Shown: positions 22,167 to 48,868 of the stretch, one piece after another
Layout: each line of letters opens with the position of its first letter
How positions within the stretch are numbered: position 1 is the stretch's first letter
Source of the DNA: Campylobacterota bacterium
GTDB taxonomy: Bacteria > Campylobacterota > Campylobacteria > Campylobacterales > Nitratiruptoraceae
Direction: 5' to 3'
Assembly: GCA_015494715.1 (NCBI GenBank)
Contig: WGAT01000035.1
Span: 1 to 50,052, forward strand
Length of the DNA stretch: 50,052 nucleotides
Program-made: the position numbers and the translations under genes
The notes under the pieces: generated by a model
Databases searched by the model: none
Told to the model about the DNA's origin: nothing
The model's input: the letters and a program-made list of their open reading frames with translations, nothing else

Positions 22167-22236
22167 TTAAGTAGCCTTTAAGCAAAAAATTTTGCCCAAT
22201 TGTACCAAAAAATTACCCCATACTCCAAGGAGACCG

Positions 22237-24246
22237 ATGCTATCGTCACTCAATCCAGAGCAGCTCCAAGCTGCCACCGCCCCTTTTGGACATAATCTTG
22301 TCATTGCAAGTGCCGGGACGGGTAAAACTTCTACCATTGTAGCGAGGATATCTTATCTTTTAGAGCGAGGAGTGCAGCCTCAAGAGATATTGTTGCTCAC
22401 TTTTACTAACAAAGCGGCTCAAGAGATGATAGGGCGAATACAGAGCCGCTTTGGAAGTTTGGCCAAAAAGATAGAGGCGGGGACATTCCATGCGGTTAGT
22501 TACCGATGGCTCAAAGCTATCGATCCAAAGCTGGTTCTTAAACAGCCAAAGGAGCTAAAACTTTTGTTTAAAAGTATTTACGAGCGCAGAGACTTGAGCC
22601 ATTTTGAGACAAAAGCTTTTGCCGCTTCGACGCTTTTTGATCTTTACTCTTTGTACCAAAACGCCCAGATGGAGCAAGGATTTGGAGCTTGGATGCGAAA
22701 AAAATATCCAGAGCATGAGGAACTCGTTCCTATTTATGAGGATATCACATTAGAGTTTGAGGAGCTAAAAAGCGAATATGGATTTTTGAGCTTCAACGAT
22801 CTTTTACTCAAAGTTATCGAGTACAAAGAGCGATTGCCACATTTTACAGAAGTACTGGTGGATGAATACCAAGATACCAATAATCTACAGGGGCGATTTT
22901 TAGAGGCGCTGCACTACAACTCTTTGTTTTGTGTAGGAGATTACGATCAGAGTATCTATGCGTTTAACGGAGCCAATATCGATATTATCGCTAGCTTTCA
23001 TTACCGATACCCAGATGCAAGGATCTTTAATCTGAGCAAAAACTATCGATCCACAAAGTATATCCTCGATCTTGCCAATAGGGTGATTGCATACAATGAG
23101 CGTATCTATCCCAAAAAATTGGAGGTAATGAATCAAAAAAAGGCGGTGCCTCCAAAGCTACTGGCCTTTTTTGATCTGTATGAGCAGTATGAAAAGATTG
23201 CTAGGCTCATCAAGCTCTCTTCGACCCCAAAAGATCAAATCGCCGTTATATTTCGCAATAATGCCAGTGCCGATGGGATAGAGGCGGCTTTGCGAGATCA
23301 AGGTCTTTCGTGCAAACGAAAAGGAGGGCAGAGTCTTTTTGATATGAAAGAGATCAAAGCTTTATTTGATCTGCTCTCTTTGCTCCTCAACCCCAAGGAT
23401 CTTTTGAGCTTTATCCATATTTTTGAATATGCAAAGGGGATTGGAGCCAATAGTGCCAAAGAGCTGTATGAGGCGTTGATACGATGTGGCGAGGGGGATA
23501 TGGTACGCGGAGTGCAAGAGCCAAAAGATATCAAAAATCCCTTTGCAAAAAAGGAGAGAAGTTATCAGCTAGCCCTCTTTGAAGATACCCTTCAACCAGC
23601 GAGCAAAAGCCGCTTTAGCCATTTGGCTATCGATGAGCGTATCAAAGCCCATCCTCTGCTTACCTATCCCAGAATGAGCGAAGATGCAGTACTCTTTTTG
23701 GAAGATTTGCGAGTATTACAAAAAAAATTTCGGCGTATTAAACGGCCAAGACAGGCGATAGAGGCATTAAGAGGCTCTTTTATTTTAAAGTATATTAAAA
23801 AGATTTTAGCCAAAAATAGAGCGAAGCGAAAAGATGGTTCGATAGACAAGGAGCGGTATTATCAAACAATAGAGCGTATAGAGCGGCGTTTTGCTCTCAT
23901 AGCCCATTTGGCTCATAATTATGATGATCTGTATCGTTTCTATAATGCGATGGTATTGGGCGGCAGCGAGATGAGTCAAGGTGAGGGAGTCAATCTCCTT
24001 ACCGTCCATGCTAGTAAAGGACTTGAGTTTAGCGAGGTGTATGTGGTGGATTTGATGGAGGGGCGTTTTCCAAATCTTAGGCTTGTCTCAAAAGGGGGCT
24101 CCATTGAAGAGGAGCGCAGACTCTTTTATGTGGCCGTTACGAGGGCTAAAGAGCTTTTGTATCTTAGCTATGCCAAATATGATCGAGTCAAAAAGCAAGA
24201 GTTTTTGCCCAGCCGTTTTTTGCAAGAGGCCGGACTCTTGCCCTAA
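22237..24246 (+). CDS. UvrD/Rep-family (SF1A) ATP-dependent DNA helicase
   Basis: The 669-aa product is a 3'-5' helicase of the UvrD/Rep/PcrA family acting in DNA repair or replication restart. Motifs in order are Q-motif LNPEQLQAA, Walker A ASAGTGKTSTIVARI, LLTFTNKAAQEM (Ia), LVDEYQDTNNLQ (II), VGDYDQSIYAFNGA (III), LSKNYRSTKYI (IV), VNLLTVHASKGLEF (V) and RLFYVAVTRAKELLYL (VI). The frame stays open to a TTG at 22192. The ATG at 22237 has CAAGGAGA just before it and starts at the usual MLSSLNPEQ. The 3' end overlaps the convergent mshG by four bases. Which paralogue it is (UvrD, Rep or PcrA) cannot be settled. Confidence 0.9.
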   Translation: MLSSLNPEQLQAATAPFGHNLVIASAGTGKTSTIVARISYLLERGVQPQEILLLTFTNKAAQEMIGRIQSRFGSLAKKIEAGTFHAVSYRWLKAIDPKLVLKQPKELKLLFKSIYERRDLSHFETKAFAASTLFDLYSLYQNAQMEQGFGAWMRKKYPEHEELVPIYEDITLEFEELKSEYGFLSFNDLLLKVIEYKERLPHFTEVLVDEYQDTNNLQGRFLEALHYNSLFCVGDYDQSIYAFNGANIDIIASFHYRYPDARIFNLSKNYRSTKYILDLANRVIAYNERIYPKKLEVMNQKKAVPPKLLAFFDLYEQYEKIARLIKLSSTPKDQIAVIFRNNASADGIEAALRDQGLSCKRKGGQSLFDMKEIKALFDLLSLLLNPKDLLSFIHIFEYAKGIGANSAKELYEALIRCGEGDMVRGVQEPKDIKNPFAKKERSYQLALFEDTLQPASKSRFSHLAIDERIKAHPLLTYPRMSEDAVLFLEDLRVLQKKFRRIKRPRQAIEALRGSFILKYIKKILAKNRAKRKDGSIDKERYYQTIERIERRFALIAHLAHNYDDLYRFYNAMVLGGSEMSQGEGVNLLTVHASKGLEFSEVYVVDLMEGRFPNLRLVSKGGSIEEERRLFYVAVTRAKELLYLSYAKYDRVKKQEFLPSRFLQEAGLLP

Positions 24247-25484
24247 TGGCCTTGGACCACTTTGGCCATATCCCACATCGGTAAAAATATGCCAAGAGCC
24301 AAGAGCAGTACCAAGCCGGCTATGATAGCGAGCATAATGGGCTCGATGTAGCTGGAGAGATTGTCTAAGATGTTGTCAAATTTCATTCCGTAATACTCGG
24401 TGATCTTTTCGATCATCGCATCAAGCTGCCCGCTTGCCTCGCCGGCCGCTAACATCTGCAAAATCATACTTTCAAAAAGTTTTGTCTCGGCAAAAGCTTC
24501 TTCGATGGATGAACCCTTTTCGACCATCGTCTTGACCGTGGCAAGTTTCTCTTTGATCACGCTATTTTCGACCATATTGATGGCGTTGTCTAGACCATCG
24601 ATAATGGGTATGCCCGCTTTTGTCAGTTCGGAAAAGACCATCATAAAGCGATTGAGTTGGGCGTAGTAGATGATATCTTTGAGCAAATAGGTGTGTAAAA
24701 AGAGTGCGTCAAGGCTATATTTGAAGTTTTTATTGGTACGATAAAGATAGACGGAGATGATGATCGTAAGCGTGAGTCCTAGTAGGATATAGAGCCCATA
24801 TGTGTTAAAAGCGTGTTCGAGCCAAAGAAGAATTTTTGTGGGCAGTGGAAGTTCAGCGTGAAATTTGGCAAAGATCGATTTAAATTTTGGCACCACATAT
24901 GTAATGAGGATAGTAAAAGCGATGCCCATGGCTGTTAGAGTGATGAGAGGATAGCGGATTGCTTTTTTGAATTTACGCACATTCTCGTCAATTTTTTCTA
25001 AAATATCGGCGAGCGTGAAGAGGGCGTGGGACATGTCCCCCGTCTGTTCGCCTAGGCGGATCATCGTAATGGTCAAAGAGCCAAGCTGTGGCCTATATTT
25101 TTCTAAAGACTTAGAGAAGCTAATACCTGCGTTGATGCTTTCGGCCAGATCGCTCAAGATGACTTTAAGCTGCTGATTTGTAGTATGGTTGGCTATTTCC
25201 GTGAGGCTGTCGTGGATTGGAATTCCAGCGTTGGCCATGACGGCGAGCTGGCGAATGGCGGCGATGAGGTCTCGGCGTTTGATTTTGCCCTTGCGTAGAT
25301 TTTGGAGCTGTTTTTGGATCTCTTTTAAATGCTCTTCTAGTGGAGGAGAGGTCTCTTCTATTTTGAGGATAATGCCGTTGGTTTTGAGTTTGGCCTTTTT
25401 GAGAGCCTCTTTTTTATTCTCCGACTTCACAAGAATATAATCTTTTTTTCCTTTACTCAGTACTTTGACATTGTAGTATCGCAT
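24243..25484 (-). CDS. mshG: MshG-like / GspF-family inner-membrane platform protein
   Basis: GspF/PilC proteins form the inner-membrane platform on which the extension ATPase acts. The 413-aa product has two T2SSF domains. The first contains QLAVMANAGIPIHDSL and RLGEQTGDMSHALFTLADIL, and the second contains FSELTKAGIPIIDGLDNA and LAAGEASGQLDAMIEKITEYY. Three membrane segments lie near 170-195, 220-242 and 380-405. It directly follows mshE (one-base overlap) and is the last gene of the pilus operon. In Vibrio the pilin genes would follow; here there is a convergent helicase. Confidence 0.88.
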   Translation of the reverse strand: MRYYNVKVLSKGKKDYILVKSENKKEALKKAKLKTNGIILKIEETSPPLEEHLKEIQKQLQNLRKGKIKRRDLIAAIRQLAVMANAGIPIHDSLTEIANHTTNQQLKVILSDLAESINAGISFSKSLEKYRPQLGSLTITMIRLGEQTGDMSHALFTLADILEKIDENVRKFKKAIRYPLITLTAMGIAFTILITYVVPKFKSIFAKFHAELPLPTKILLWLEHAFNTYGLYILLGLTLTIIISVYLYRTNKNFKYSLDALFLHTYLLKDIIYYAQLNRFMMVFSELTKAGIPIIDGLDNAINMVENSVIKEKLATVKTMVEKGSSIEEAFAETKLFESMILQMLAAGEASGQLDAMIEKITEYYGMKFDNILDNLSSYIEPIMLAIIAGLVLLLALGIFLPMWDMAKVVQGH

Positions 25485-27226
25485 TACAACCTCGTTACGC
25501 GCAATACTTCATCGATAGTGGTAGAGCCTTGGATCGCTTTGACTATGCCATCATAGATCATCGGTTTGAAGCCTTTTTTTGTGGCGGCGTTAAAGATGGC
25601 CTCTTTGCTCTCCTCTTTTGCTATCATACGAGAGATATCCTCGTCCACGTTGAGTACCTCGCATATCATCTCTCGTCCACTGTATCCGGTAAAATCGCAA
25701 TGTTTGCACCCTTTGCCTTTGAAAAATCTGTAGTTTGGAGGTAAATACCCTTTAATCTCTTCTAATACTTTTGGTTCTAGCTCTGTTTGGGTTTTGCAAT
25801 GTGGGCAGATACGGCGTACCAGCCGTTGAGCTTCTATGGCGATCAGAGCCCCGCTTACCAAATAAGGTTCAATGCCCATATCGATCATTCGGTTGATGGC
25901 GCTGATGGCGTCGTTGGTATGGAGAGTGGAGAGGACGAGGTGGCCAGTAAGAGCGGCTTGGGTGGCGATACGCATCGTCTCTTGATCACGAATCTCACCG
26001 ATCATGACGATATCTGGGTCTTGACGAAGAATGGAGCGCAGAGCAGAGGCGAAAGTAAATCCGATTTTTGGATTGACTTGGGCTTGTTGTACGAGATTGA
26101 TTTTATACTCTACCGGATCTTCGACGGTAATGATCTTTTTTTCTACGCTTCTTAGCATATTAAGAGCGCCGTACAAAGTAGTTGATTTACCGCTTCCAGT
26201 GGGGCCCGTGACCAAGATGATCCCATATGGGGTTTTAAGGGCCTTGGTAAAAATTTCAAAATTATATTTACTCATTCCCGCTTCTTCAAGCGGGATCATC
26301 GCTTTTGTCTTGTCTAAGATCCGCATAACGATGGATTCTCCAAAGACGATAGGCAGTGTGGAGATACGAAAGTCATACTCTTTGCCTATAATAACTTCTG
26401 AGAAGCGTCCGTCTTGGGGTTTCCTCTTCTCAGCGATATCAAGATTGGCCAAAAGTTTGAGTCTAGAGGACAGAGGTGGGTAGATATCCTTATCGAAAAT
26501 GAACTTTTCAGTGAGCAGCCCATCGATTCTGGCTCGGACGACGCAGTTGTTTTCGGTGGGCTCGATATGGATATCACTGGCACGAGAGAGGATACAAGAC
26601 TTAAGGATTGCCTCAATAAGTTTTAAAATAGCGCTTGACTCTTCTAACTCCTCTTTATCCCCTATGCCGTTTTGTAAGTCTCTTCTGATTTCATCGATAT
26701 ACTCTTTGATGTTTTCATTTAATTCTAATTTATTGAGAAAATTATCTATTTGGTGCTGTTGTGCCAAAACAAGTTTAATCGGTTTTTTGGGAAAAAGACG
26801 TTGGAGAGCGTCTTGCGCTCCGATATCGAGGGGATCGGCAATCGCTACGATAAGCGATAGGTCGCTCTCTTTTACAGGTATGGCGTGATATTTTTTGAGT
26901 TGGTTGAGAGGGATTTTGGAAGCGACTTTTAAGTTGATGTCATAAGAGTCTAAATCGATGTACTCTATACCAAGATTTTTGGCAAAAGATTCGAGGGCTT
27001 TTTCTTGAATGGTGCCAGAGAGTTCTTGTAGGTCTTGAGGGAGAAGCTCCCCGTGTCTGAGACCTTTTGCCAAAATTTGGACTATCTGCTCTTCAGAGAA
27101 GATTTTTTGATTGATCAAGGAGTAGATGGCCTGTTTGGGTGAAGTACTTTCCTTTTGGATCTGTTGTAGTTGAGCCACCTGATTAAGGGGGAGGTGGCGA
27201 AGAATAAAATTTAATATTTTGTCCAT
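25484..27226 (-). CDS. mshE: MshE-like / GspE-family extension ATPase
   Basis: This hexameric ATPase powers assembly of the pilus or pseudopilus. The 580-aa product has an N-terminal MshEN/T2SSE_N region (1-170) and the ATPase core with Walker A VTGPTGSGKSTTLYGAL. The Asp box ILRQDPDIVMIGEIRDQET, the His box TGHLVLSTLHTNDA and the four-cysteine zinc motif (CPHCKTQ, about residue 480, with CKHCDFTGYSG) are all visible. The N-terminal region does not show the usual RLG-containing c-di-GMP motifs of MshE. It follows a gene for a small secreted protein and precedes mshG. Confidence 0.9.
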   Translation of the reverse strand: MDKILNFILRHLPLNQVAQLQQIQKESTSPKQAIYSLINQKIFSEEQIVQILAKGLRHGELLPQDLQELSGTIQEKALESFAKNLGIEYIDLDSYDINLKVASKIPLNQLKKYHAIPVKESDLSLIVAIADPLDIGAQDALQRLFPKKPIKLVLAQQHQIDNFLNKLELNENIKEYIDEIRRDLQNGIGDKEELEESSAILKLIEAILKSCILSRASDIHIEPTENNCVVRARIDGLLTEKFIFDKDIYPPLSSRLKLLANLDIAEKRKPQDGRFSEVIIGKEYDFRISTLPIVFGESIVMRILDKTKAMIPLEEAGMSKYNFEIFTKALKTPYGIILVTGPTGSGKSTTLYGALNMLRSVEKKIITVEDPVEYKINLVQQAQVNPKIGFTFASALRSILRQDPDIVMIGEIRDQETMRIATQAALTGHLVLSTLHTNDAISAINRMIDMGIEPYLVSGALIAIEAQRLVRRICPHCKTQTELEPKVLEEIKGYLPPNYRFFKGKGCKHCDFTGYSGREMICEVLNVDEDISRMIAKEESKEAIFNAATKKGFKPMIYDGIVKAIQGSTTIDEVLRVTRL

Positions 27227-27232
27227 TTTGAT

Positions 27233-27772
27233 TTACCGGTACTGATGGGTAATAATCTTATTTGGTCGTATCTCTTTGATAATAAGTACTTTGCCATATT
27301 TATCTTTCCCAACGCTCATTTTATATGTCGTATTATGCTCTTTATCTTGCATTACATACTCATTATCGGTTTTTTTATACTTTTTTTGAAAATAGAGATG
27401 AAAAACTTTGGAGAGGATGTAGGGGGTTTGTGGAAGATGGATGGGAGGGAAAGTAGTACCGTCAAAAAGAGCCGAAGTCAGCATGTTCTTTTGGGTGAGG
27501 ATCAAAGAGAAATAGGCTCGGTTATATCGAGCTTGCGGCGTTTTGCTCAAAACCAAAATAGGTACGGCTAATCTGTTGATATAGTCGATACGTAAACAGG
27601 AAAAAGCATACATCATAGTGAGATTCTGATCTTTTTGGAGTTTGTCGAAAAGTTTGTATCCTTTATTGCACACATATGCGTACTTTTTATTTTTATAGGC
27701 TTTGATGAGCGAAGAGATATCCGTAGCGTGGGCTATGAGGAGAAAAGATAGAGATATAAGTATCACTCTCAT
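27233..27772 (-). CDS. Secreted protein of unknown function in the MSHA-like operon
   Basis: I do not recognise this 179-aa protein. It has a signal peptide (MRVILISLSFLLIAHA) and no further membrane segment. The mature part starts with a helical region containing two cysteines (YAYVCNKGYKLF and MYAFSCLRIDY), which may form a disulfide. It ends in a strand-rich basic part (TTYKMSVGKDKYGKVLIIKE). It overlaps the MshN-like gene by four bases and sits 6 bases from mshE, so it is part of the operon. It may be a pilotin-like or assembly factor for the machine, but this is only inferred from position. Confidence 0.7.
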   Translation of the reverse strand: MRVILISLSFLLIAHATDISSLIKAYKNKKYAYVCNKGYKLFDKLQKDQNLTMMYAFSCLRIDYINRLAVPILVLSKTPQARYNRAYFSLILTQKNMLTSALFDGTTFPPIHLPQTPYILSKVFHLYFQKKYKKTDNEYVMQDKEHNTTYKMSVGKDKYGKVLIIKEIRPNKIITHQYR

Positions 27773-28545
27773 TGAAATGTTCCCTTTTGCATTTGAAGAT
27801 AGAGTGCTTGGGCCCTAGGACTTGGATGGTGGAGTAAATAGGCGTATAAAGCGTCCAGTGCCCGTCTTTTATCTCCCATTTTATAGGCTGATTTAGCAAA
27901 AATGATCCAGCTTTTTTCATCCGATTTATCAAATTCGTTGGCTTTGATACTCCATTCCAGCGCTTGTGGGTATTTATGAAGCTCGTAAAATTTTTGAGCT
28001 ATTAATAAAGCGATATTTTTGTTTGGATGGTTTGCAAAAGTTTCTTGTAGCGTTTTTATGTCGCTTTTTTGAGTTTGGATGTGAAGTAGTTTTTTATGCT
28101 GCACTGGAGTTGTTGAAGAAGAGGATTTGGTATACGAGGCCTTTTTTGGCTGAGTCTTTAGGGGGTGGCGAGGAATAGCTTTTGTAGGTTTGGTTGGTGC
28201 ACTAAGATACTTTTCAAACTCTAGATTCGGTAATAAAAGAGGAGCTGCCAAAGAGGTGCAAGAATAGGAAGAATCAGAAGAGGATATTGATGATGATAGA
28301 AAGGATATTTCTTGGGAGAGGGCGCTTTTTTGCATCTGTGGCGATGACTTTGGTTGGGGTGTAGAGGTGGAAGAGGTTGAGGCCTTAGTAGAGTATTTAG
28401 TAGTAGGGGTATTGTGATTGGATAAAGAGTAAGAAAGGATAAGATAGGCTCCCGCAAAGACTATCCCAACTGCTCCCAATTTTTTTATGAATTTTTTGAT
28501 TTTGTATCTTTTCCATCTTTTTTCTAAGAGCTCATATTCATGCAT
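27769..28545 (-). CDS. MshN-like membrane-anchored TPR protein
   Basis: The 258-aa product has a cytoplasmic N-terminus with basic residues and one membrane helix (about 24-43, VGIVFAGAYLILSYSL). A long low-complexity Ser/Thr/Pro linker (about 45-140) is followed by a C-terminal TPR-like part (about 165-258) with ALLIAQKFYELHKYPQALEW and KMGDKRRALDALYAYLL. This layout and its place between the MshM-like ATPase and MshE match MshN of the Vibrio MSHA locus. The Ser/Pro linker probably spans the periplasm. Sequence similarity to MshN could not be tested. Confidence 0.65.
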   Translation of the reverse strand: MHEYELLEKRWKRYKIKKFIKKLGAVGIVFAGAYLILSYSLSNHNTPTTKYSTKASTSSTSTPQPKSSPQMQKSALSQEISFLSSSISSSDSSYSCTSLAAPLLLPNLEFEKYLSAPTKPTKAIPRHPLKTQPKKASYTKSSSSTTPVQHKKLLHIQTQKSDIKTLQETFANHPNKNIALLIAQKFYELHKYPQALEWSIKANEFDKSDEKSWIIFAKSAYKMGDKRRALDALYAYLLHHPSPRAQALYLQMQKGTFQ

Positions 28546-29308
28546 CGATATATCCCATATAAATAGCGCACATCTCTAAAAATTTTTTTTGTATCTTTTT
28601 GGATTGGACTTTGGTGGGGTGGTGGATATCGTAAAACTCCAAAATATCAAAAAGATTATATAAAAATTTATTGGTTTGGCGAAAATTCCCTTTTGTATAT
28701 CGGTAGATAAAAGAGGATCTTTTTTGATCAAAGCGTTGGGCTAGGTCTACGAGTCTGGCGTTTAAGAGTTTTTTTTGAATGTATATCTGAAATTCTGGGA
28801 GTTTTGGTTCTTGCATTTTGATCTCTTTGAAAATACGGGTCTTAAAGTGCTCTTTTGCCGTGAGCTCCTCTTCTTCGTTATGATGTAAAGAGAGCAAAAA
28901 ACTTAGCTTTTGCGTGTCGCTGAGTATGCGTATTATCTCCAGCGTATCGCTTGTGTAAAGTTGCGCTTCGTCTAACAAAAAGATATGGTGTTCGTCAAGC
29001 TCTTCGATTGTATCAAGCAGATCCATATCTTTTTGTATTCCTAAACTTTTTTTAATATCTTTTTCAAAAGTAAGAGGAGAAGTAAGCAGATGGACGTTTT
29101 TTTGTTCCGTTGTTTTTGTAAAATGGCGAAGTAAAAAGGTTTTGCCAACGCCCGGTGGTCCATATAAGATGGCTAGCCTAAAAGGTTTTTGTACCAGATC
29201 GTTGAGCTCTTGTAGGTAGCTAAGATTGGATTCAAAAGTGATAAATCCGCTCTCTTGCGTCTCCAAAAAAGCCTCTTTAGCTTCGTGGTAGATACTTTTA
29301 TTTTTCAT
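28538..29308 (-). CDS. mshM: MshM/ExeA-like AAA ATPase
   Basis: ExeA/MshM ATPases help place the secretin in the cell wall. The 256-aa product (from MKNKSIYHEAKEAF) has Walker A LYGPPGVGKTFLLRHF (about 50-65) and Walker B HIFLLDEAQLYT (about 107-118). ExeA-type segments are ILSDTQKLSFLLSLH and YTKGNFRQTNKFLYNL. No peptidoglycan-binding domain is fused. The frame is open to a TTG seven codons upstream without a ribosome site, so I prefer the ATG ending at 29308. It overlaps mshL by 11 bases and the MshN-like gene by 8. Confidence 0.82.
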   Translation of the reverse strand: MKNKSIYHEAKEAFLETQESGFITFESNLSYLQELNDLVQKPFRLAILYGPPGVGKTFLLRHFTKTTEQKNVHLLTSPLTFEKDIKKSLGIQKDMDLLDTIEELDEHHIFLLDEAQLYTSDTLEIIRILSDTQKLSFLLSLHHNEEEELTAKEHFKTRIFKEIKMQEPKLPEFQIYIQKKLLNARLVDLAQRFDQKRSSFIYRYTKGNFRQTNKFLYNLFDILEFYDIHHPTKVQSKKIQKKFLEMCAIYMGYIDA

Positions 29309-30785
29309 TGGGCAATTTTTTATATCCAAAGTCTTTTAGGCTCAAGCTTGAGGTATCTCCATCAACGATACGCGGTCGCAAAATAAATACCAACTCAAAT
29401 CTTTTATTATCGCTCTTTTTACTTTTGAAAAGATTGCCAAAGATAGGGATGTCTTTGAGAATGGGGACGCCGTTGATCATAAAATTTTTAGTGTTTGAGA
29501 TAAGACCTCCAAGGATGAGCGTAGCTCCATTTTTTACTTTTACGACCGTAGATATTTTCTTCTCCGTGGTATCTGGGGCTATTTCACGAAAACCTTTTTG
29601 GTTCATCTTATCCAGTTCCTCTGGATTGCGAAGCTCGGAGATAGATGGATTGATACGCAAGATAATATCGTTGTCTTTCGTGATTTCTGGGGTGATATTG
29701 AGTAAAATCCCAACAAAGATGGAAGAGGGCGTATAAGCGACCTCTCCGGGATTGTTGTTGCTGCTAATAGTGATTTGTGTAGGGACATTATAGTTAAACG
29801 TATCCCCTATCGTGATGATAGCTGGCTGATTGTTCAGAGTGAGTACTTTTGGATTGGAGAGTGTGATGACATTGCCATTTTGCTGTAAAAAGTTGATAAT
29901 GCCGGCAAGATGCAAAGATGTATTGATAATCGCCGTAGCGGTGGAGGTATAGCTAAGATTTTTAAAATTTGTACCCGTCCCTACGCTTTGGTACTGGTAG
30001 AGCGGATTGGTTGGTACAAACTTTCCGGTGCCGTCGTAGTCCCCATTGAGCAACAGATTAAAACGGCTCCAGTCAATGCCTGTAGTAGCATTTTTGTTTA
30101 GTACGACCGCTAAAATGGAGACATCGATCAAAACCTCTTTATGGAGCCTGCTTTCTATACTTTCTATGTAGCGTTTGACCCTATCGATCTGTTTTTTTGT
30201 GGCCGTTACGGTAATAAGACCGGCGTTTGCGTTGACGATAGGGGGAGGTGCTTTGTATTCATCCTCTGGACGGTTGATAATATTGGCAATCTCTTTAGGG
30301 ATTTTGCTCCAAAAATCAAACTCGTCCGTCGCTTGGATTTTATTGATATCCCGTCCTTGGCGAGCTGTTTGGCCATTGCCGTTGTTACCCCCTACGCTCA
30401 CATCCACAGAGGCGTCGGTAGTCGTTTCGCTTTTTCGTTTTGTGATGATATAGTCGAGCCGAAAGGTTTTTGTGATGAGATAGCGTATCTTAAGAATATT
30501 GCCATCAAGTGTGTAGTTGAGGTTGTGTTCATCTAGTAAAATATGTAAAAGATCTGTGAGGGTCACGTTTTTAAGATTGAGTCGGCCAAGGGGGGAGTGG
30601 AGTTTTCTTTTGGCGTATTTGTCTTTGACAAGCACGGTAAAACCGCACTCATCGGCCAAATTATTGATATACTCGCCAATTGTTATCCCGGGGACGCTTT
30701 GGATGGTAAAGAGTTTTGTACGACAATCTTCTTGAGCTATGCTAAAAAGCGCAAGAAGAAGTAGCGTCACGAAAATTTTTTTCAT
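29298..30785 (-). CDS. mshL: MshL-like secretin
   Basis: Secretins form the outer-membrane ring through which a pilus or secreted substrate passes. The 495-aa product has a signal peptide (to about residue 17) and a secretin N-terminal domain with IQSVPGITIGEYINNLADEC and LTDLLHILLDEHNLNYTL. A Gly/Asn-rich linker with QTARQG follows, then a beta domain with ANAGLITVTATKKQIDRVKR. The C-terminal secretin core includes TLSNPKVLTLNNQPAII, GATLILGGLISNTK, GVPILKDIPIFGNLFKS and ELVFILRPRIV. The match to the secretin family is clear. MshL is chosen because of gene order. Confidence 0.92.
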   Translation of the reverse strand: MKKIFVTLLLLALFSIAQEDCRTKLFTIQSVPGITIGEYINNLADECGFTVLVKDKYAKRKLHSPLGRLNLKNVTLTDLLHILLDEHNLNYTLDGNILKIRYLITKTFRLDYIITKRKSETTTDASVDVSVGGNNGNGQTARQGRDINKIQATDEFDFWSKIPKEIANIINRPEDEYKAPPPIVNANAGLITVTATKKQIDRVKRYIESIESRLHKEVLIDVSILAVVLNKNATTGIDWSRFNLLLNGDYDGTGKFVPTNPLYQYQSVGTGTNFKNLSYTSTATAIINTSLHLAGIINFLQQNGNVITLSNPKVLTLNNQPAIITIGDTFNYNVPTQITISSNNNPGEVAYTPSSIFVGILLNITPEITKDNDIILRINPSISELRNPEELDKMNQKGFREIAPDTTEKKISTVVKVKNGATLILGGLISNTKNFMINGVPILKDIPIFGNLFKSKKSDNKRFELVFILRPRIVDGDTSSLSLKDFGYKKLPNEK

Positions 30786-31219
30786 TTTTTTCTCCCCTCA
30801 GATATCTGAAACAAAGAGCGTTTGCGTTTATGTTTATGTAAAAACAATCGAAGCTGTTTGCCCTTGGCCCTCAGTAGGACAAAGGCTCGATTGGGATCGA
30901 TATAGGTGAGCCAGTACGAGCCTATTTTGTCCCCAATTTTATACCATCGACCATTAATTTTAGCTCTATTATCAAAAATAGAAAGCAATCGAAGAGTAAA
31001 TTTTTTTCTTTTCATTTTGATAATTTTTTGTTTAATAACGATTTTTTTGAGAGTTCGTTGGTCGATAAATGGGTTTTTGAGTTTGGCTATTTGCTCTTTT
31101 GTTAGTCCATGGCGGGGTATCTTGATCTTTTCTATGAGTTTGTCGATATCTTCAAATTGGTTGTTTGCCGATAATGTTAAAATACAGCCAAAAAGAGCGA
31201 TTAGTAGTTTATGCCCCAT
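30782..31219 (-). CDS. MshK/PilP-like small secreted protein
   Basis: The 145-aa product has a signal peptide (MGHKLLIALFGCILTLSANN), and the rest is basic. LRLLSIFDNRAKINGRWYKI and KIGSYWLTYIDPNRAFVLLR resemble the short beta fold of MshK/PilP/GspC homology-region proteins, which link the inner-membrane platform to the secretin. It lies between the MshJ-like and mshL genes, overlapping mshJ by 19 bases and mshL by 4. Assignment rests on size, fold hints and position. Confidence 0.65.
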   Translation of the reverse strand: MGHKLLIALFGCILTLSANNQFEDIDKLIEKIKIPRHGLTKEQIAKLKNPFIDQRTLKKIVIKQKIIKMKRKKFTLRLLSIFDNRAKINGRWYKIGDKIGSYWLTYIDPNRAFVLLRAKGKQLRLFLHKHKRKRSLFQISEGRKK

Positions 31220-31833
31220 ACCGATACCTTGAATATTGTTTCTAATGGATTTTTGTTCAAAATAGAGAGCTCGTAGACATCTACTACCAAATCGCTTTGC
31301 TCTATATCGTTGATATAAGAGATCAAATTTTTAAAATCGCCGTTACAAGAGATCTCAACCTCCAAAACATGACCGAAGTTTTTGGTCACATCCAAAAAGT
31401 TATTTAGTATATAGTTGATTTCTACTCTATTTTTTGCCGCTTTTTGTGTCAAAGAGTTTAAAAACTGAGCCCACTTTTTTTTGTTATATAAAAGATAAGA
31501 GAGTTCTCGTATTTTACGATCCAGATACTCCTCTTTTGCTTTGATGTAGTGAAAATGTTTTTTAAGCTCTTGGATCGTTTTGGTGTACTGCTTTATGTAA
31601 TAGGTGGAGTCCCCGTTGAGCGACATAGCGCGAATATAGGCTTTGTCTGCATTGATTTTGTTCTCAATTGCCTCTTTTTTGGCTTTAGCCTCTTTCAGAA
31701 TTCTTTCGCTCCAAGGGAAAAGGTATTGATATACAAGAGCCATAATGCCTAAAAATATGGAGGCGTTGATAAGGAGTATCTCCGTTTTTTGTCTCTTTGC
31801 AAAAAGATCGTCCAGTTTTTTTAAAAGTGTCAT
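31201..31833 (-). CDS. MshJ/PilO-like inner-membrane protein
   Basis: The 210-aa product has one membrane helix (about 21-38, LLINASIFLGIMALVYQYLF), then a coiled coil (about 45-110), and a C-terminal ferredoxin-like half with LEVEISCNGDFKNLISYIND. This is the build of PilO/MshJ, which pairs with the PilN-like part of the neighbouring protein to form the alignment complex. Its start overlaps the MshI-like gene by four bases. Confidence 0.75.
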   Translation of the reverse strand: MTLLKKLDDLFAKRQKTEILLINASIFLGIMALVYQYLFPWSERILKEAKAKKEAIENKINADKAYIRAMSLNGDSTYYIKQYTKTIQELKKHFHYIKAKEEYLDRKIRELSYLLYNKKKWAQFLNSLTQKAAKNRVEINYILNNFLDVTKNFGHVLEVEISCNGDFKNLISYINDIEQSDLVVDVYELSILNKNPLETIFKVSVWGINY

Positions 31834-33347
31834 TTATGTTGGACCTCTATAGTTGAGTAGTAGACACTGCTGTTAGGATCTGTTTTGTTGATCTCCTTGG
31901 TCGATACGTCGTAGATCTTATATTTATTATCGTAAATATATTTAATAAATTTTGTGATCTGTTTCTCATCGACAGCTGTGACATTAAAATCAAAACGTTT
32001 TTGATGATTTGCTATTTGCGTCGTTTTGATCTTGTATTTGACCAAATCTTGGCTCAAGTCGGCGATGGTGACTCCTTTCATTATGTAGTTGACTTTTTTA
32101 TCGTAAATAGCTTGAAGGATTTTTTCCCTTTTTTTTAGACCTTTCTCTTTTTTGGCTATGAGTGTTTGGAGTTTTTGCGTCTCTTTTTTAAGATGATTGA
32201 TCTGTGTTTGTAGGGCCACTCTTTGGGCATGGATTTTAGGATACTCCCTTTGTAAAAGGATTGTATCGTATTTTGTTTTGTACGCTAAAAAGATGTTGTA
32301 CAGAGGGTACAAAGAAGAGAGTATGATACTGCCTAAAAGAGCGATTAAGAATTTACCGCTGGGACGCTCTAAAAAAGGAGGTGGCCGTTGGAAAATGGTA
32401 AGATTTGGGTATTCGATTTTATTTAAAACTATCTCTTTGGCCGCTAAAGCCATAAGAAAGTGGAGATCTTCGATATAAGGATCTTGGGCTTTAATCCCGT
32501 AATCAAAAAGAAAATCGTATGCCTCTTGAGCGAGATATGTTTGAGAATACTCTTCTATACCTTTAATAAAGCCGATTTCTGAGCTTATAAAGATCTTGTC
32601 AATCATATCGATATTGTTTGCCCTCTTGGCATAGATCAAAATATCGTTTATATGCATAAATATTTCACTAAAGACTTGCATATAGTATTGTAATTCATCA
32701 AGATCTTCCAATTTTAATCCACTTTTTGCCAAATTTTGCATCACCTCCTCAACCTTTACCTCTTGACCCTTGAGCTCGCTAAGACGCTGGGCTATGTCGT
32801 TAAAAGAGTATTTCATGGATTTGGCGTAAAGAAGATATCCTTCATTATAAATAGCTAAAAAAGCGTCGTCCTTTTGAAAATAGATAAAAAGATGGATTTC
32901 ATCTTTTGGCAAAATTTCTTGATTGTAGAGTGGTCGGAAAAGAAGGGGAGCGGGAATTATGGTGTCAATATATGGGATTTGGCGTATAGTTTGGGCAAAA
33001 ATCTCTCGGACTAAAGCGGGTTCGGTGACAAATATTTGAAATGTGCGCTCTTTTTTGTGGGCGGGTGAGGGAATTTCGTAGTATCGAATGATATATTCAA
33101 TCGTTTGGTCTAAATCGAGTTCTTCATAAACTCGCAGCTCTATTGTATCAGCAAGATCTTCGGGAGGAATATTTTTACTGATTTCAAGGCTCGTAAAGAT
33201 AAAGTCCTTTGTTTCTAAAAAGGAGATATAATAGTTTCTTGGTGAAAACTTAGGAGAAAATCTTTTGAGGCTTTCATTTTCATAAAGGAAAAAGGTATTA
33301 TTATATGGATTAATTGTGACAAATCTACTAAACTGCTCTTTTTTCAT
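31830..33347 (-). CDS. MshI-like protein (PilM-like plus PilN-like parts)
   Basis: This 505-aa protein is the first gene of the minus-strand pilus operon. Residues 1 to about 300 look like a PilM/actin-like cytoplasmic domain, with FVTEPALVREIFAQTIRQI, IPAPLLFRPLY and FIYFQKDDAFLAIYNEGYLL. A membrane helix lies near 340-358 (IALLGSIILSSLYPLYNIFL). A coiled coil and a PilN-like C-terminal domain follow. In Pseudomonas PilM and PilN are separate genes, while Vibrio MshI is closer to this fused form. A probable -10 (TAAAAT) lies 27 bases upstream. Confidence 0.7.
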   Translation of the reverse strand: MKKEQFSRFVTINPYNNTFFLYENESLKRFSPKFSPRNYYISFLETKDFIFTSLEISKNIPPEDLADTIELRVYEELDLDQTIEYIIRYYEIPSPAHKKERTFQIFVTEPALVREIFAQTIRQIPYIDTIIPAPLLFRPLYNQEILPKDEIHLFIYFQKDDAFLAIYNEGYLLYAKSMKYSFNDIAQRLSELKGQEVKVEEVMQNLAKSGLKLEDLDELQYYMQVFSEIFMHINDILIYAKRANNIDMIDKIFISSEIGFIKGIEEYSQTYLAQEAYDFLFDYGIKAQDPYIEDLHFLMALAAKEIVLNKIEYPNLTIFQRPPPFLERPSGKFLIALLGSIILSSLYPLYNIFLAYKTKYDTILLQREYPKIHAQRVALQTQINHLKKETQKLQTLIAKKEKGLKKREKILQAIYDKKVNYIMKGVTIADLSQDLVKYKIKTTQIANHQKRFDFNVTAVDEKQITKFIKYIYDNKYKIYDVSTKEINKTDPNSSVYYSTIEVQHK

Positions 33348-33417: not shown

Positions 33418-34302
33418 TTAGAAGATATATCCTATTTTTTCCATCTCTTTTTTACTTTTTGTCCATCCTTTTTTGACCACGACGAAAAGATGTAAAAATA
33501 TTTTTTTACCGCTAAACTCTTCTAAAAGTTTTCTGGCATCTTTTCCGATTCGTTTGATGGTTTCGCCTCCTTTGCCTATGATGATCCCTTTTTGTGAGGG
33601 TTTTTCTACTACAATCATTGCATACACTTTGTCCATTGTGGGAGTCTCTTCTATTTTTTCTATAATTACATCCGTTTCGTAAGGAATCTCGTCGCTGAGA
33701 TTTTCAAAAATCGCTTCTCTAATGAGTTCTTTGTAGATATCTCGTATATTTTCGGTAGTAAGCAGTTCGGGGTCGTAATAGTAGGGGTGTTCGGGAAGAT
33801 ATTGGATAATGGCGTCAAGCAGCTCCTCTTTGCCGATGTTTTTCTTTACCGATACGGGTACGAGCTCTAAAAATTTATCTTGATATTTTTGATACTCGGC
33901 AATCTTTTTTAAAAGCTCCTCATTGCTTACCGTATCTATCTTGGTGAGTACCAAAATATGGGGGCGGTTCTTGGCAAGCTGTAAAAATTTTTCATAATGG
34001 GTGATCGGATCGGTCACCGGGGCCAAAAAAAGGATGAGATCGCAATCGCCAATCGCTTTGAGTGCTTCTTCGAGCATAAATTTATTAAGCAGCCGCTCCT
34101 TTTCGTGTAACCCGGGTGTATCGATAAAGATGATTTGGGCGTTTTTGTACATTACGATTGCGTAAAGCCGTTTTCTCGTAGCTTGTGCTTTATGGCTTAC
34201 CATGGCGATCTTTTCGCCAAGGAGCCAGTTGAGTAGGGTGCTTTTACCGGCATTTGGTCGCCCGATGAGGGCCACATATCCGGCTTTAGTGGTGTGAGGC
34301 AT
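33418..34302 (-). CDS. era: GTPase Era
   Basis: Era is an essential GTPase that binds 16S rRNA near its 3' end during 30S assembly. The 294-aa product shows G1 GRPNAGKSTLLN, G3 IFIDTPGLHEKE, G4 VLTKIDTVS and a C-terminal KH domain with GIIIGKGGETIKRIGKDARK. The N-terminus (MPHTTKAGYVALIGRPN) is normal. It lies 8 bases after hslU in the same direction, the end of the argG-rplI-hslV-hslU-era run seen in Campylobacterota. Confidence 0.97.
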   Translation of the reverse strand: MPHTTKAGYVALIGRPNAGKSTLLNWLLGEKIAMVSHKAQATRKRLYAIVMYKNAQIIFIDTPGLHEKERLLNKFMLEEALKAIGDCDLILFLAPVTDPITHYEKFLQLAKNRPHILVLTKIDTVSNEELLKKIAEYQKYQDKFLELVPVSVKKNIGKEELLDAIIQYLPEHPYYYDPELLTTENIRDIYKELIREAIFENLSDEIPYETDVIIEKIEETPTMDKVYAMIVVEKPSQKGIIIGKGGETIKRIGKDARKLLEEFSGKKIFLHLFVVVKKGWTKSKKEMEKIGYIF

Positions 34303-34310
34303 TCGTATCC

Positions 34311-35642
34311 TTATAAGATATATTTGGCCAAATCTTCGTTTTCTATCACTTCTCCTAGGCGTTTATCTACATAGGCTTTATCGATTGTGATAGTCTCACC
34401 TTTATGTTCATCTGCTTCAAAACTTATATCTTCGAGCAGATTTTCCACGACCGTATGCAAACGTCTCGCGCCGATATCTTCGATCTTTTGGTTGGCACTG
34501 TGGGCATATTTGGCGATAGCCCGCAAAGCTTCGTCGCTAAATTCCAATTTGACGCCCTCTACGCCAAGCAGGGCTTGATACTGTTTGATCAGCGAATTTT
34601 TGGTCATCGTAAGGATTTTGTATAAAGCCTCTTCGTCCAAAGAGTCCAGCTCCACCCTAAGAGGAAATCGTCCTTGGAGTTCTGGTATCAAATCGCTTGG
34701 TTTGCTCAGATGAAAAGCGCCGGCGGCAATGAAAAGGATATGGTCAGTTTTAACGGGACCCCATTTTGTGCTGACGGTACTCCCCTCTACGATAGGGAGG
34801 AGATCTCGCTGTACTCCTTCTTTGCTTGGGTCTTGACGACCTTGGGAGGAGCTAGAAACGGCTACCTTATCGATCTCGTCAATAAAAATGATCCCTTCTT
34901 CTTGCGCTTTTTGGAGTGCTTCTTGTTTGATCTGTTCCATATCGAGCAGATTTTCGCTCGCTTCGTTTTTGAGCAGCTCCTTGGCCTCCTTAACTGTGAC
35001 CTCTTTTTTGATCCGCTCTTTGTTCAGACCAAGAGTAAAAATTTTGGTGATGGACTCTTGTGCTTTGGCCAATTCTGGTGGAAGATTGCTATCATCAAGA
35101 CTCAGGCTGTTTTTGGGTAATTCTATTTCGATTTTGAGCTCGTCTAGCTCTCCATCCAAGAGCCGTTTTTTCATCTTCTCAAAACTCTTTTGATACTCCG
35201 CTTTTTTCTCTTCACTGGCCATTTTAGGTAGAGGCGGTAGGAGTTTTTCTAAAATTTTTTTAGTCACATACTCTTCGATCGCCTCTTTGTTACGTTCTTT
35301 ATGGATCTCTTTGACCAAAACCAGTGCGTTAGCTACCAGGTCTCGCACCATCGACTCCACATCTCGTCCTACGAAGCCCACTTCTGTGTATTTGCTCGCC
35401 TCCACTTTGACAAAAGGAAGATCCAAAGATTTGGCCAGCCGCCTGGCGATTTCGGTCTTACCTACTCCTGTACTTCCTATCATCAAGATATTTTTGGGTG
35501 TGATCTCATCTTGAAGCTCTTTTGGTAGTTTCATTCGTCGATATCGGTTACGAAGAGCGATAGCGATCACTTTTTTAGCTTCTTTTTGGCCAATGATATA
35601 CTCATCCAGATACTCCACGATCTGTTTTGGTGTTAGATCCAT
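34311..35642 (-). CDS. hslU: HslU, ATPase subunit of the HslUV protease
   Basis: HslU unfolds substrates and feeds them to HslV. The 443-aa product from [19 protein letters not shown] has the Walker A MIGSTGVGKTEIARRLA, the pore loop region KYTEVGFVGRDVESMVRDL, the intermediate I-domain (about 130-240), Walker B GIIFIDEIDKVA and the sensor region ELQGRFPLRVEL. The frame extends upstream 16 codons. The ATG ending at 35642 overlaps the hslV stop (TGATG), has GGAG nearby, and gives the usual length. Confidence 0.96.
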   Translation of the reverse strand: MDLTPKQIVEYLDEYIIGQKEAKKVIAIALRNRYRRMKLPKELQDEITPKNILMIGSTGVGKTEIARRLAKSLDLPFVKVEASKYTEVGFVGRDVESMVRDLVANALVLVKEIHKERNKEAIEEYVTKKILEKLLPPLPKMASEEKKAEYQKSFEKMKKRLLDGELDELKIEIELPKNSLSLDDSNLPPELAKAQESITKIFTLGLNKERIKKEVTVKEAKELLKNEASENLLDMEQIKQEALQKAQEEGIIFIDEIDKVAVSSSSQGRQDPSKEGVQRDLLPIVEGSTVSTKWGPVKTDHILFIAAGAFHLSKPSDLIPELQGRFPLRVELDSLDEEALYKILTMTKNSLIKQYQALLGVEGVKLEFSDEALRAIAKYAHSANQKIEDIGARRLHTVVENLLEDISFEADEHKGETITIDKAYVDKRLGEVIENEDLAKYIL

Positions 35643-36181
35643 CACTCCTCCAGACTTAAAAGCTTGATATTGTCGTTTGTGTAGATACAAAGTTCCGCAG
35701 CGATTTTTAAAGACTCTTTTACGAGCGATTTTGCGTCGAGATCTGCGTGTTTATTCAAAGCTCTAGCGGCGCTTAAAGCAAAATTTCCGCCACTTCCAAT
35801 AGCCGCTATTTGGCCATCTTCTGGCTCCACTACGTCGCCGTTGCCGCTGAGGATAAAAATATTTTTGGTGTTAAGTACGATCATCATCGCTTCGAGGCGC
35901 CTGAGATAGCGATCCTTTCGCCACTCTTTGGAAAATTCGATGACGCTTTTGAGCAGATCCCCTTTTTTATTCTCCAAAATATTTTCAAACATATCAAAAA
36001 GATTGAAAGCATCGGCGGTACTGCCGGCAAAGCCGGCTAAAATCTTGCCATTGTAAAGGGTCCGGATTTTAGTGGCGTTGCCTTTGAGCACGGTATTGCC
36101 AAATGTTACTTGGCCATCGCCTCCGATGACGGCGATACCATCACCTTTGTAGCCAAGTATCGTGGTAGCTTCGAACATCAT
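35642..36181 (-). CDS. hslV: HslV, peptidase subunit of the HslUV protease
   Basis: HslV is a proteasome-like threonine peptidase. The 179-aa product has [40 protein letters not shown] and [18 protein letters not shown], all family typical. In most HslV the catalytic Thr follows the initiator Met; here the TT pair is preceded by FEA after one or two Met. Activation would therefore need extra N-terminal trimming. Two adjacent ATG codons are possible starts. The gene overlaps both rplI and hslU, so the three are translated as a coupled set. Confidence 0.95.
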
Positions 36182-40019: not shown

Positions 40020-40448
40020 TTGAAAAAGATGGTATTGCTTTTTTTACTTTTTATCTGGGTTGGATTGGCGAGTAATAGCAATTTAATTAAGGCGAGCCTA
40101 TTCTCTTGGATCGTAGAGCTTTTGGAGCGGGATAATCCATATGTGCAAATTTATATAGATTCCAAAGAGTATCAAGATATTCCCAAATATGTAAAAAAAT
40201 ATCACTTTACTAGAAATTGCCTTGATGCAGATCTTCTTTTTGTAGATACGATTAAAGATCTTCCTAAAGAGTGTATTTACGGACATAAAGTTTTTGTGAC
40301 GAAATATATTGATTTTGTTCAAAATAGAGATAAAGTGGTTGGTGCTTTCTTTTTGCAAAAGGGTCGACCTACTCTTATTTTTAATAAAAGACTGCTCAAG
40401 TACTTTGGAATTGTACTCCCACCAAAATATGATAAGTATATAGATTAG
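40020..40448 (+). CDS. Small secreted protein paired with a GGDEF-EAL protein (YfiR-like by layout)
   Basis: The 142-aa product has a signal peptide (MKKMVLLFLLFIWVGLA) and a single compact domain. It contains LIKASLFSWIVELLERDN, DADLLFVDTIKDLPKECIYG with one of two cysteines (the other is in RNCLDAD), and the end KGRPTLIFNKRLLKYFGIVL. Size, location and the closing strand-helix recall YfiR, the periplasmic partner that restrains the cyclase YfiN, but I cannot show homology. The start is TTG at 40020, 8 bases after GGAG; the next ATG is three codons later. The GGDEF-EAL gene follows after 5 bases. Confidence 0.75.
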   Translation: MKKMVLLFLLFIWVGLASNSNLIKASLFSWIVELLERDNPYVQIYIDSKEYQDIPKYVKKYHFTRNCLDADLLFVDTIKDLPKECIYGHKVFVTKYIDFVQNRDKVVGAFFLQKGRPTLIFNKRLLKYFGIVLPPKYDKYID

Positions 40449-40453
40449 CGACT

Positions 40454-42406
40454 ATGCGATATGTGGGGCTAAAAAAATATCTTTATTTTTTGATTCTTAT
40501 TTTTATAATGTTTTTGTTGACCGCTTTTTTATATATCAAATTTGATCAAGTTCTTCAAACTACTTCGGATGAGTTTCAAAATCTTAAAGTCCACGAGATA
40601 GAGCATAATGCTCTTTCTATCTCTCGTATTTTGCGTTTTTTAGTAGGTGATTTGAGTAGTAGCAGTGGCGATATTTTGAAAATTTTGAGAAAAAATGACC
40701 TATTGCGACATACTATCGATACTCTTCTTTCTGCTTTTATTAATGATGAGAATCGTTATGTGTATATTGTTTATGAGGATAAGGGGCACAATTTTCGCTA
40801 TTTGGCCGATGGCTCTATGGATAAAAAAGAGAGAGGTTTTTTTGGCCAAAAATTTTTCCCCTTACAAGAGAAAAAGTGGCAAAAAGCTTTTAATCTGGAT
40901 AGGACTACTATTTTTATGCAAGAAAGCATAGATAATCTTTGGATTACGATGCTCGCGCCTCTGCATATTTTTAAAAATATTAAAAGCTTCTTAGTTATTG
41001 ATCTTTCTACTATGGCTTATAAAAATGTTAAATCTATTTTTTTAAAACTCAAACATTTTTTAAAATATTTGATTATTTTTTTTATTGCTATTTTTTTGCT
41101 TATCGCCACATTGTATTTTTTTCTCTATCGTGAATATCGCCGTACCTTTCTTGATCCTTTAACGGGGGCATACAATAGAGAATTTTTAACCCAGCTGGAG
41201 AAAAATATCGATTTGCAAAAATACATTGTGGCTATGATAGATTTGGATTATTTTAAGTTAATCAACGATCTGTATGGGCACGATGTCGGTGATGAAATGC
41301 TAAAAAAAATAGCAAAAACGATTATAAATACTATTTCGTATAAAGATATTCTCATACGATATGGAGGAGATGAGTTTTTGCTTCTGCTTCAAAAAGATAA
41401 AAAGGAGGATTTTAAGAGCTTTTTTGATCGATTGCATCGAAATATCAATGAGACTGCTCTTTCATTAAGGGATAGCAGTACGCTCAAGACTACATCTTCT
41501 ATTGGTATTAATTTAATGCCCAATTTGGAAGAATCCTTAAGTGATGCCATTAAAAAGGCGGATATGGAACTCTATAGGGCTAAAAATAGTGGACGAAATC
41601 GGTTTAAATTTTATGAGACGCAAGATCGAAAGGTAGGAGGATATATAAGTTTTAATAAAATATCTCAACTTGTAAAAGAAGGAAATATAGAGCTTCATTT
41701 TCAACCTATATACAATTTTCGTACAAAACAAATCGATAGATACGAGGCATTAGCAAGATTGCGAGATGGCGATACGCTCTATTTGCCCCATCAATTTTTA
41801 ATCGCTATTTTTCAAACCAATGTATATCGAGAATTTGCGAAGCAGGTGGTGCGTCAAGCCTTTGAAGTAATCAAAAAAGAGCGTGTGGTCATAAGTATCA
41901 ATTTTAATAAATCGGATTTTTTGGATGAAGAGTATTTTAAAACGATTAAAGAGCTTATAGAGCGCAATAAAAGTTATCGCCAGTTTCTCATTTTAGAGCT
42001 ATTAGAGAATGAAGAGCTTAAGATCGATGATGAAAAGATATTGGATAAAATCAAATATTTTCAACGAATTGGATGTAAAATCGCTCTTGATGATTTTGGT
42101 AGTGGATATTCCAATTTCAACTATTTTTTGACGCTAGAGCCAGATATCATTAAGCTTGATGGCTCTTTAATCAGGCAGCTTGATACCAATCCTAATGCCA
42201 AAAAGTTAATACAAAGCATCGTGCTTTTTGCCAAACATATCGGTATAGAGACTATTGGCGAGTGTGTAGAAGATGAAAAGACGCTTCAAATAATGGAGCG
42301 TCTCAATATAGATGGAGCGCAAGGCTATTTTATAGGGAAACCCATGCCCTACCTACAAAGAGAGCCTTTTGAGGTCTTCGGGCGTATCGATACCGACGCT
42401 GCGTGA
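40454..42406 (+). CDS. Membrane-bound GGDEF-EAL protein (c-di-GMP synthesis and breakdown)
   Basis: The 650-aa protein has a membrane helix (about 8-29), a periplasmic sensor part of about 165 residues, and a second helix (about 203-225). The GGDEF domain (about 233-395) has the intact signature RYGGDEFLLLL. The product-inhibition site RxxD is not present (SYKD instead). The EAL domain (about 405-645) has YEALARLRD, ILELLENEE, DDFGSGYSN, IIKLDGSLI, ETIGECVED and QGYFIGKPMP. These keep the residues expected of an active phosphodiesterase, so it may be bifunctional. It is coupled to the small secreted gene upstream. Its last 54 bases overlap the convergent kdsB. Confidence 0.92.
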   Translation: MRYVGLKKYLYFLILIFIMFLLTAFLYIKFDQVLQTTSDEFQNLKVHEIEHNALSISRILRFLVGDLSSSSGDILKILRKNDLLRHTIDTLLSAFINDENRYVYIVYEDKGHNFRYLADGSMDKKERGFFGQKFFPLQEKKWQKAFNLDRTTIFMQESIDNLWITMLAPLHIFKNIKSFLVIDLSTMAYKNVKSIFLKLKHFLKYLIIFFIAIFLLIATLYFFLYREYRRTFLDPLTGAYNREFLTQLEKNIDLQKYIVAMIDLDYFKLINDLYGHDVGDEMLKKIAKTIINTISYKDILIRYGGDEFLLLLQKDKKEDFKSFFDRLHRNINETALSLRDSSTLKTTSSIGINLMPNLEESLSDAIKKADMELYRAKNSGRNRFKFYETQDRKVGGYISFNKISQLVKEGNIELHFQPIYNFRTKQIDRYEALARLRDGDTLYLPHQFLIAIFQTNVYREFAKQVVRQAFEVIKKERVVISINFNKSDFLDEEYFKTIKELIERNKSYRQFLILELLENEELKIDDEKILDKIKYFQRIGCKIALDDFGSGYSNFNYFLTLEPDIIKLDGSLIRQLDTNPNAKKLIQSIVLFAKHIGIETIGECVEDEKTLQIMERLNIDGAQGYFIGKPMPYLQREPFEVFGRIDTDAA

Positions 42407-48152: not shown

Positions 48153-48155
48153 AAA

Positions 48156-48860: not shown

Positions 48861-48868
48861 GGTAAAAA

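Follow-up and report, generated by a model that had tools for sequence, protein, structure and literature searches.

The operon in the window

The window analyzed here is a stretch of 50,052 nucleotides of contig WGAT01000035.1 from a Campylobacterota bacterium of the Nitratiruptoraceae (assembly GCA_015494715.1; 1.69 Mb in 102 contigs, 99.87% complete). Between positions 24243 and 33347 it carries nine minus-strand open reading frames (ORFs), designated I, J, K, L, M, N, x, E and G in this order, which overlap with their neighbours or are separated from them by no more than 7 nt (the longest possible start of each ORF was taken by script). The first-pass annotation had described this region as an operon of the mannose-sensitive hemagglutinin (MSHA) pilus type with the order I-J-K-L-M-N-E-G. 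The ORFs, their strand and, for I, J, L, M, E and G, their families or folds fit this description, except that a ninth conserved ORF, x, located between N and E, had been overlooked. A decayed operon was ruled out since all nine ORFs are open. As argued below, the operon probably encodes the machine by which this Nitratiruptor-like vent bacterium takes up DNA; it would be of the Cts type, within the MSHA class, and its pilins are encoded elsewhere.

I (31830–33347), at the position of MshI, had no accepted Pfam family match in the profile search of the window proteins, and comparison of its sequence with the PDB gave three matches only, at E-values of 0.15 or more and aligned to the coiled-coil part. 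Its AlphaFold2 (AF2) model (predicted local distance difference test, pLDDT, of 88.8; predicted template modeling score of 0.67) displays a PilM-like actin fold followed by a long helix and a small alpha/beta domain, with PilM as best Foldseek match (E 7.5e-13). Judging from the model, I is likely a fusion of the PilM-PilN type, the C-terminal part of which may correspond to PilN. J (31201–31833) is PilO-like (PF04350, E 5.1e-05, 23.9 bits, cut-off 22), while K (30782–31219) is weakly assigned as PilP/GspC-like by its position, with a T2SSB match at E 0.067, below cut-off, as the only sequence match. L (29298–30785) is a secretin of the MshL/CtsD type (PF00263, 2.3e-43), and M (28538–29329) is an AAA ATPase of the AAA_22 family (PF13401, 2.7e-09) that was assigned to MshM/CtsP by position. 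N (27769–28545), a membrane-anchored tetratricopeptide repeat (TPR)-like protein at the MshN/CtsX position (PF12895, ANAPC3, 28.2 bits, cut-off 27.2), shares 31% identity over 87 aa with the ORF found at the same place in Campylobacter jejuni. E (25484–27226) is an assembly ATPase with an MshEN domain (PF00437, 1.2e-129; PF05157, 3.4e-20) and G (24243–25484) the inner-membrane platform protein (PF00482, T2SSF, 4.5e-52). The additional ORF x (27233–27772) encodes 179 aa; the N-terminus is signal-like, and the AF2 model (pLDDT 92) shows TPR-like helices together with a beta-sheet. No accepted family match was obtained for x in Pfam or NCBIfam, Foldseek returned nothing at E ≤ 0.001, and the best VIA-align matches (Z 7.8 to 2r5s and 7.3 to the YbgF TPR domain) were too weak for naming. 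It is present in 24 of the 80 named loci, is 94% identical to its counterpart in a Nitratiruptor metagenome-assembled genome (L175), and contains two cysteines that are invariant across 23 aligned sequences.

With respect to machine class, L scored best of all secretin models with TIGR02519 (MshL), at 250.0 bits against a cut-off of 250.2, followed by GspD. The type II secretion models remained below their cut-offs: 163.9 of 351.35 bits for GspD, 552.3 of 630.25 for GspE and 247.3 of 424 for GspF. TIGR02519 gave 246.0 bits for the L protein of a second machine on contig C71, described below, and 330.7 bits for CtsD of a C. jejuni genome (G247); passing the MshL cut-off, this CtsD is therefore, by its score, a secretin of the MshL kind. 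At the level of its parts the operon is MSHA-type, with an MshEN-domain assembly ATPase, the platform protein G and the AAA protein M; I, J, L, M, E and G fit the order by fold or family, K and N are weak by sequence and x is extra. The order I-J-K-L-M-N-E-G is that of the Vibrio MSHA locus. The window operon shares with Vibrio MSHA the MshEN-domain ATPase, the PilM-like I, the PilO-like J and, probably, an MshL-type secretin and the gene order, but differs from it in the absence of pilins from the locus, in an ATPase without the cyclic di-GMP (c-di-GMP) motif and in the presence of x. MSH systems have been detected in Epsilon-proteobacteria, i.e., in the same phylum, using a multi-locus model in which mshA is a loner (Denise et al., 2019; PMC6668835); no connection of these systems to Cts or to comEC-linked pilins was seen there. 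As for the major pilin MshA, which that model allows as a loner, pilins are present at other loci of the genome analyzed here.

Pilin loci and a second machine in the same genome

The absence of type IV pilin leaders and of a prepilin peptidase from the window, as stated in the first-pass annotation, was confirmed. A relaxed six-frame scan detected 0 leaders in the window, whereas at four loci elsewhere in the genome that encode pilins it detected 5, 3, 2 and 1; pilins in the window under another leader were thereby ruled out. The genome search that had been proposed at the same time yielded 11 matches to PF07963, none of them on the contig of the window, and a single match to Peptidase_A24 (PilD), on contig C34, so that a genome without PilD was ruled out as well. 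Contig C71 accounts for five of the pilins, C42 for three, C97 for two and C102 for one, and all 11 possess a leader and a hydrophobic stretch. The six pilins outside C71 belong to three loci, namely a train of genes with priA (three pilins), a cluster with proC, hpf and recG beside a giant protein (two) and a site near argH (one); no assembly gene was found among the ORFs seen at these loci. Of the two explanations offered previously, pilins elsewhere is thus the one that held, and another substrate is not needed. The train on C42 reads pil3-pil2-pil1-priA-ispG-dnaB-comEC on one strand, with 4-nt overlaps at pil1/priA and dnaB/comEC. Moreover, the genome encodes four T2SSE ATPases, two of them of the PilT family, two secretins, two platform genes each hit twice, ComEC (PF03772, 4.0e-26) and DprA. 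On sequence evidence, the bacterium possesses the machine, no pilins next to it, pilin loci elsewhere, PilD, two PilT-family genes, ComEC and DprA. DnaB, IspG, PriA, UvrB, ProC, RecG and ArgH of this genome were confirmed by NCBIfam, which gave no match for ComEC, Hpf and PilD; ComEC and PilD were named by Pfam, and the labels Hpf, AclA/AclB, MqnC, Ppk, HslV and RplI are presumed. The giant protein (L019:7014-12191), encoded between proC and the minor pilins, comprises 1,726 aa with matches to Calx-beta and DUF7305, and resembles in part a DUF6701 protein of the C71 cluster.

Contig C71 carries a second machine with the order I-J-K-L-M-N-E-G, preceded by pilins and the DUF6701 protein and followed by two pilins in convergent orientation, which accounts for the five pilins of this contig. 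Machines of this type were found in this genome and in the relatives G029, G036, G053, G145 and G105, while G028 is mixed, having an ATPase of the C71 type and a secretin that groups with the window type. The window-type ATPase gene of G028 (L056:9522-11160) is split into two overlapping ORFs of 318 and 245 aa and was left out of motif scoring. The minor pilins form two clades, the proC type and the C71 type, with support of 100/100 each.

The two machine types differ in their ATPases. MshE of Vibrio cholerae binds c-di-GMP via two 24-residue motifs (PMC5013675), and the ATPases were scanned with a relaxed form of the motif described there. None of the 16 window-type ATPases (that of the window and those of L032-L043, L049, L055 and L057) contained it, nor did any of the 71 ATPases in the named loci, a set which overlaps the former. 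By contrast, among the seven C71-type ATPases four contained both motifs and three contained one. Of the two machines, the one on C71, with pilins of its own and c-di-GMP motifs, is more likely to form an adhesion pilus. A further filament machine, not of the MSHA class and with only weakly related ATPase and secretin, occurs in seven of 16 sampled relatives (L030, L031, L044, L045, L052, L054, L058); pilin-like leaders were seen in five of these seven loci (none in L044, two in L045 and two in L052), and the c-di-GMP motif was not found in the seven ATPases of these machines.

Relatives and the Cts system of Campylobacter jejuni

The counterpart of the operon in C. jejuni is the Cts transformation system, a point missed by the first-pass annotation, and in this system the location of pilins away from the operon is the normal state. 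The missing-pilin gap is real but ordinary for the phylum. Cts of C. jejuni comprises CtsD, CtsP, CtsX, CtsE and CtsF, with Cj0683, CtsG and CtsT encoded elsewhere. The representative examined, G247, is C. jejuni 414 or very near to it, as its CtsD is identical to that of C. jejuni 414. Its Cts locus has the order K-L-M-N-E-G, as in the window; its CtsD shows 42% identity to the window L as compared to 28% to the C71 L, and falls within the window-type secretin clade with support of 95/94. The identity of its CtsE is 43% to the window type and 40% to the C71 type. Like the genome analyzed here, C. jejuni has a pilin before priA and another beside proC, the latter of which we take to be CtsT. 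There are, however, three priA-linked pilins in this genome and one in C. jejuni, and the proC locus holds minor pilins with the giant protein here and a single pilin of 220 aa there. Likewise, this genome has two PilT-family genes, whereas the only second T2SSE match of C. jejuni 414 is a weaker frame of 342 aa. The lengths of CtsE (519 aa) and of a pilin of 171 aa in G247 equal the published lengths of CtsE and CtsG, and that of the pilin before priA (145 aa) equals the length implied for Cj0683 (PMC10046745). Loss of Cj0683 has been reported to nearly abolish DNA uptake in C. jejuni, and Cj0683 binds CtsE in the yeast two-hybrid assay (PMC10046745). In G247, priA reads as two overlapping ORFs (L059:9586-11440), possibly due to a sequencing or assembly error.

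The sample of relatives consisted of 16 genomes of ten genera, in which T2SSE ATPases and pilins were located and the loci annotated against the proteins of this genome, gene labels being best blastp hits at 1e-4 (1e-3 for L110-L191). The loci retrieved were those surrounding a T2SSE hit or a PF07963 hit with an E-value of 0.01 or lower, which places the proC region of G107 outside. The order from I to G recurred in 12 of the 16 relatives (L032-L043; x was not found in one and I is split in one) and was complete in Campylobacter concisus (L130), and is therefore not due to chance. The split I gene, in G145 (L036:15974-17517), reads as two ORFs of 281 and 221 aa. A pilin near priA was present in all 17 genomes, from nine families (this genome and 16/16 relatives), and comEC lay inside the priA-pilin locus in 11 of the 16 relatives, on the strand of priA in nine. 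Pilins at proC or hpf were found in 16 of the 17 genomes, i.e., in this genome, in 14 of the 16 relatives by script and in G145 by blastp, G107 not being examined. In G105, the same pilin genes of the proC locus occur on two contigs, C6 and C26 (L098 and L099), probably an assembly duplicate.

Six of the 16 relatives have a single assembly-type ATPase (G247, G107, G162, G098, G206 and G252), and in all six the secretin is closer to the window type than to the C71 type. In each of them, a pilin with a leader is encoded no more than 4.5 kb from priA, and in five there are also pilins at proC or hpf, G107 being the sixth. Both pilin loci thus persist, as far as sequence tells, in relatives with one machine. 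The first-pass annotation had named as evidence against its view a pilin cluster elsewhere with its own complete assembly genes and no prepilin left for the window machine. Such a cluster was indeed found, on C71, but six other pilins are available and two of their loci are kept in one-machine relatives.

Co-occurrence in other Campylobacterota, the check suggested by the first-pass annotation, was examined across the phylum for the secretin and the proC-type minor pilin. The window secretin had hits in 272 of 298 Campylobacterota genomes at 1e-10, and the proC-type minor pilin profile, which also matches C71-type minor pilins (1e-36 in this genome), in 194 of 298 at 1e-6. In the co-occurrence table of 292 genomes, 143 had a secretin match of 1e-80 or better; the minor pilin was detected in 93 of these at 1e-50 or better, in 17 at 1e-15 to 1e-49, in 16 only at 1e-6 to 1e-14 and in 17 not at all. 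The 33 strong-secretin genomes with weak or no minor pilin all belong to the genus of G247 (g13). Among the 43 genomes with no or only a remote secretin, the minor pilin was absent from 37, weak in three and strong in three, and among the 106 with an intermediate secretin it was strong in 29, middling in 11, weak in 22 and absent from 44 (39 of family f2, four of g13 and one of f6). Secretin and minor pilin are thus clearly associated in much of the phylum but not throughout it, and the sensitivity of the profile limits the comparison. For Arcobacter butzleri, a ctsD relative whose identity is only 20.9% has been listed, and neither ctsP nor ctsX (PMC8308473); therefore, other arrangements exist in the phylum. 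Cj0683 has been reported, by BLAST, to be unique to Campylobacter (PMC10046745). By position, in contrast, each of the 17 genomes studied here has a pilin in the neighbourhood of priA, and comEC is frequently close to it as well. In the open-licence literature searched, we came across no description of the pilin-priA-comEC train for bacteria other than Campylobacter.

Proposed function and genomic surroundings

Taken together, we infer that the scattered pilins assemble on the window machine and that the machine serves DNA uptake. Following this, we propose that prepilins are made at separate loci, namely the priA-comEC train, the proC/hpf cluster with its giant, perhaps tip, protein and the argH-linked site, and would be processed by PilD, of which there is one in the genome. 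Polymerization of the pilins would then be the task of E and the platform G, while I, J, K, N and x would be inner-membrane and periplasmic parts and M an accessory ATPase. The fibre might exit through the secretin L and be retracted with bound DNA by a PilT-family ATPase encoded elsewhere, and ComEC would, in the last step, pass the DNA across the inner membrane.

Alternatively, the same machine and scattered pilins might serve attachment, as a surface or adhesion pilus like that of Vibrio MSHA, and DNA uptake would then be a secondary activity or none at all. We consider this unlikely: although the MshL-type secretin, the MshEN-domain ATPase and the 1,726-aa Calx-beta protein ahead of the minor pilins would suit such a pilus, the ATPase lacks the c-di-GMP motif, pilins stand in one train with comEC, and the counterpart in C. 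jejuni is a transformation system. It appears decidedly improbable that the window machine draws on the C71 cluster for its pilins, or that both machines share all pilins, since six relatives with only one assembly ATPase keep the scattered loci and the minor pilins fall into separate clades, even though one PilD serves all and the pilin leaders are much alike. Least credible is a pilus-less machine that secretes another substrate in the manner of type II secretion; the lack of a pilin in the window and the matches of the GspE and GspF models to E and G would agree with it, but six leader-bearing pilins outside the C71 cluster as well as PilD exist, and the GspD, GspE and GspF models all stayed below their cut-offs.

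Several observations weigh against a Cts-type DNA-uptake machine served by scattered pilins, which we nevertheless favour. I, J and x, present in the window operon, were not seen at the C. jejuni locus, the ATPase tree leaves the C. jejuni group unplaced between the two machine types, and in G162 E and G match the C71 type slightly better. Furthermore, the priA locus showed no comEC in five of the 16 relatives (G247, G107, G162, G028 and G013), most members of family f2 combine a secretin match of intermediate strength with the absence of the minor pilin, and five of the 11 pilins of this genome scored 18 to 20 bits in whole-protein scans, where the Pfam cut-off is 21.2.

For the Campylobacterota as a whole, the odds seem even that an MSHA-class machine became a standing DNA-uptake pilus, with the priA-comEC train, the proC/hpf tip cluster with the giant protein and a motor without c-di-GMP gating, and that some lineages, including this one, keep a second, gated MSHA-class machine with its pilins in place for attachment. 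If true, gated and ungated copies of the same machine would exist in one genome. Two related machines of one genome that differ in the c-di-GMP motif of the motor represent a testable pair. The outcome for the window machine is a candidate parts list, pilins included.

Regarding the surroundings, the operon ends, as described in the first-pass annotation, against a convergent UvrD-like helicase gene on the plus strand (22192–24246; PF00580, 7.8e-56), the ends of this gene and of G overlapping by 4 nt. Upstream lie era and hslU on the minus strand (33418–35690; NCBIfam Era and HslU over cut-off); the same two genes flank the operon in those 12 relatives of the sample that have the full order. 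ValS of the window was confirmed by NCBIfam. At 40020–42406, a small secreted-looking protein of 142 aa is followed by what we presume to be a GGDEF-EAL-type protein; c-di-GMP signalling would bear on the C71 machine. Finally, positions 47394–49549 hold a gene which we take to be MotA-like, followed by two presumably MotB/OmpA-like genes in tandem.

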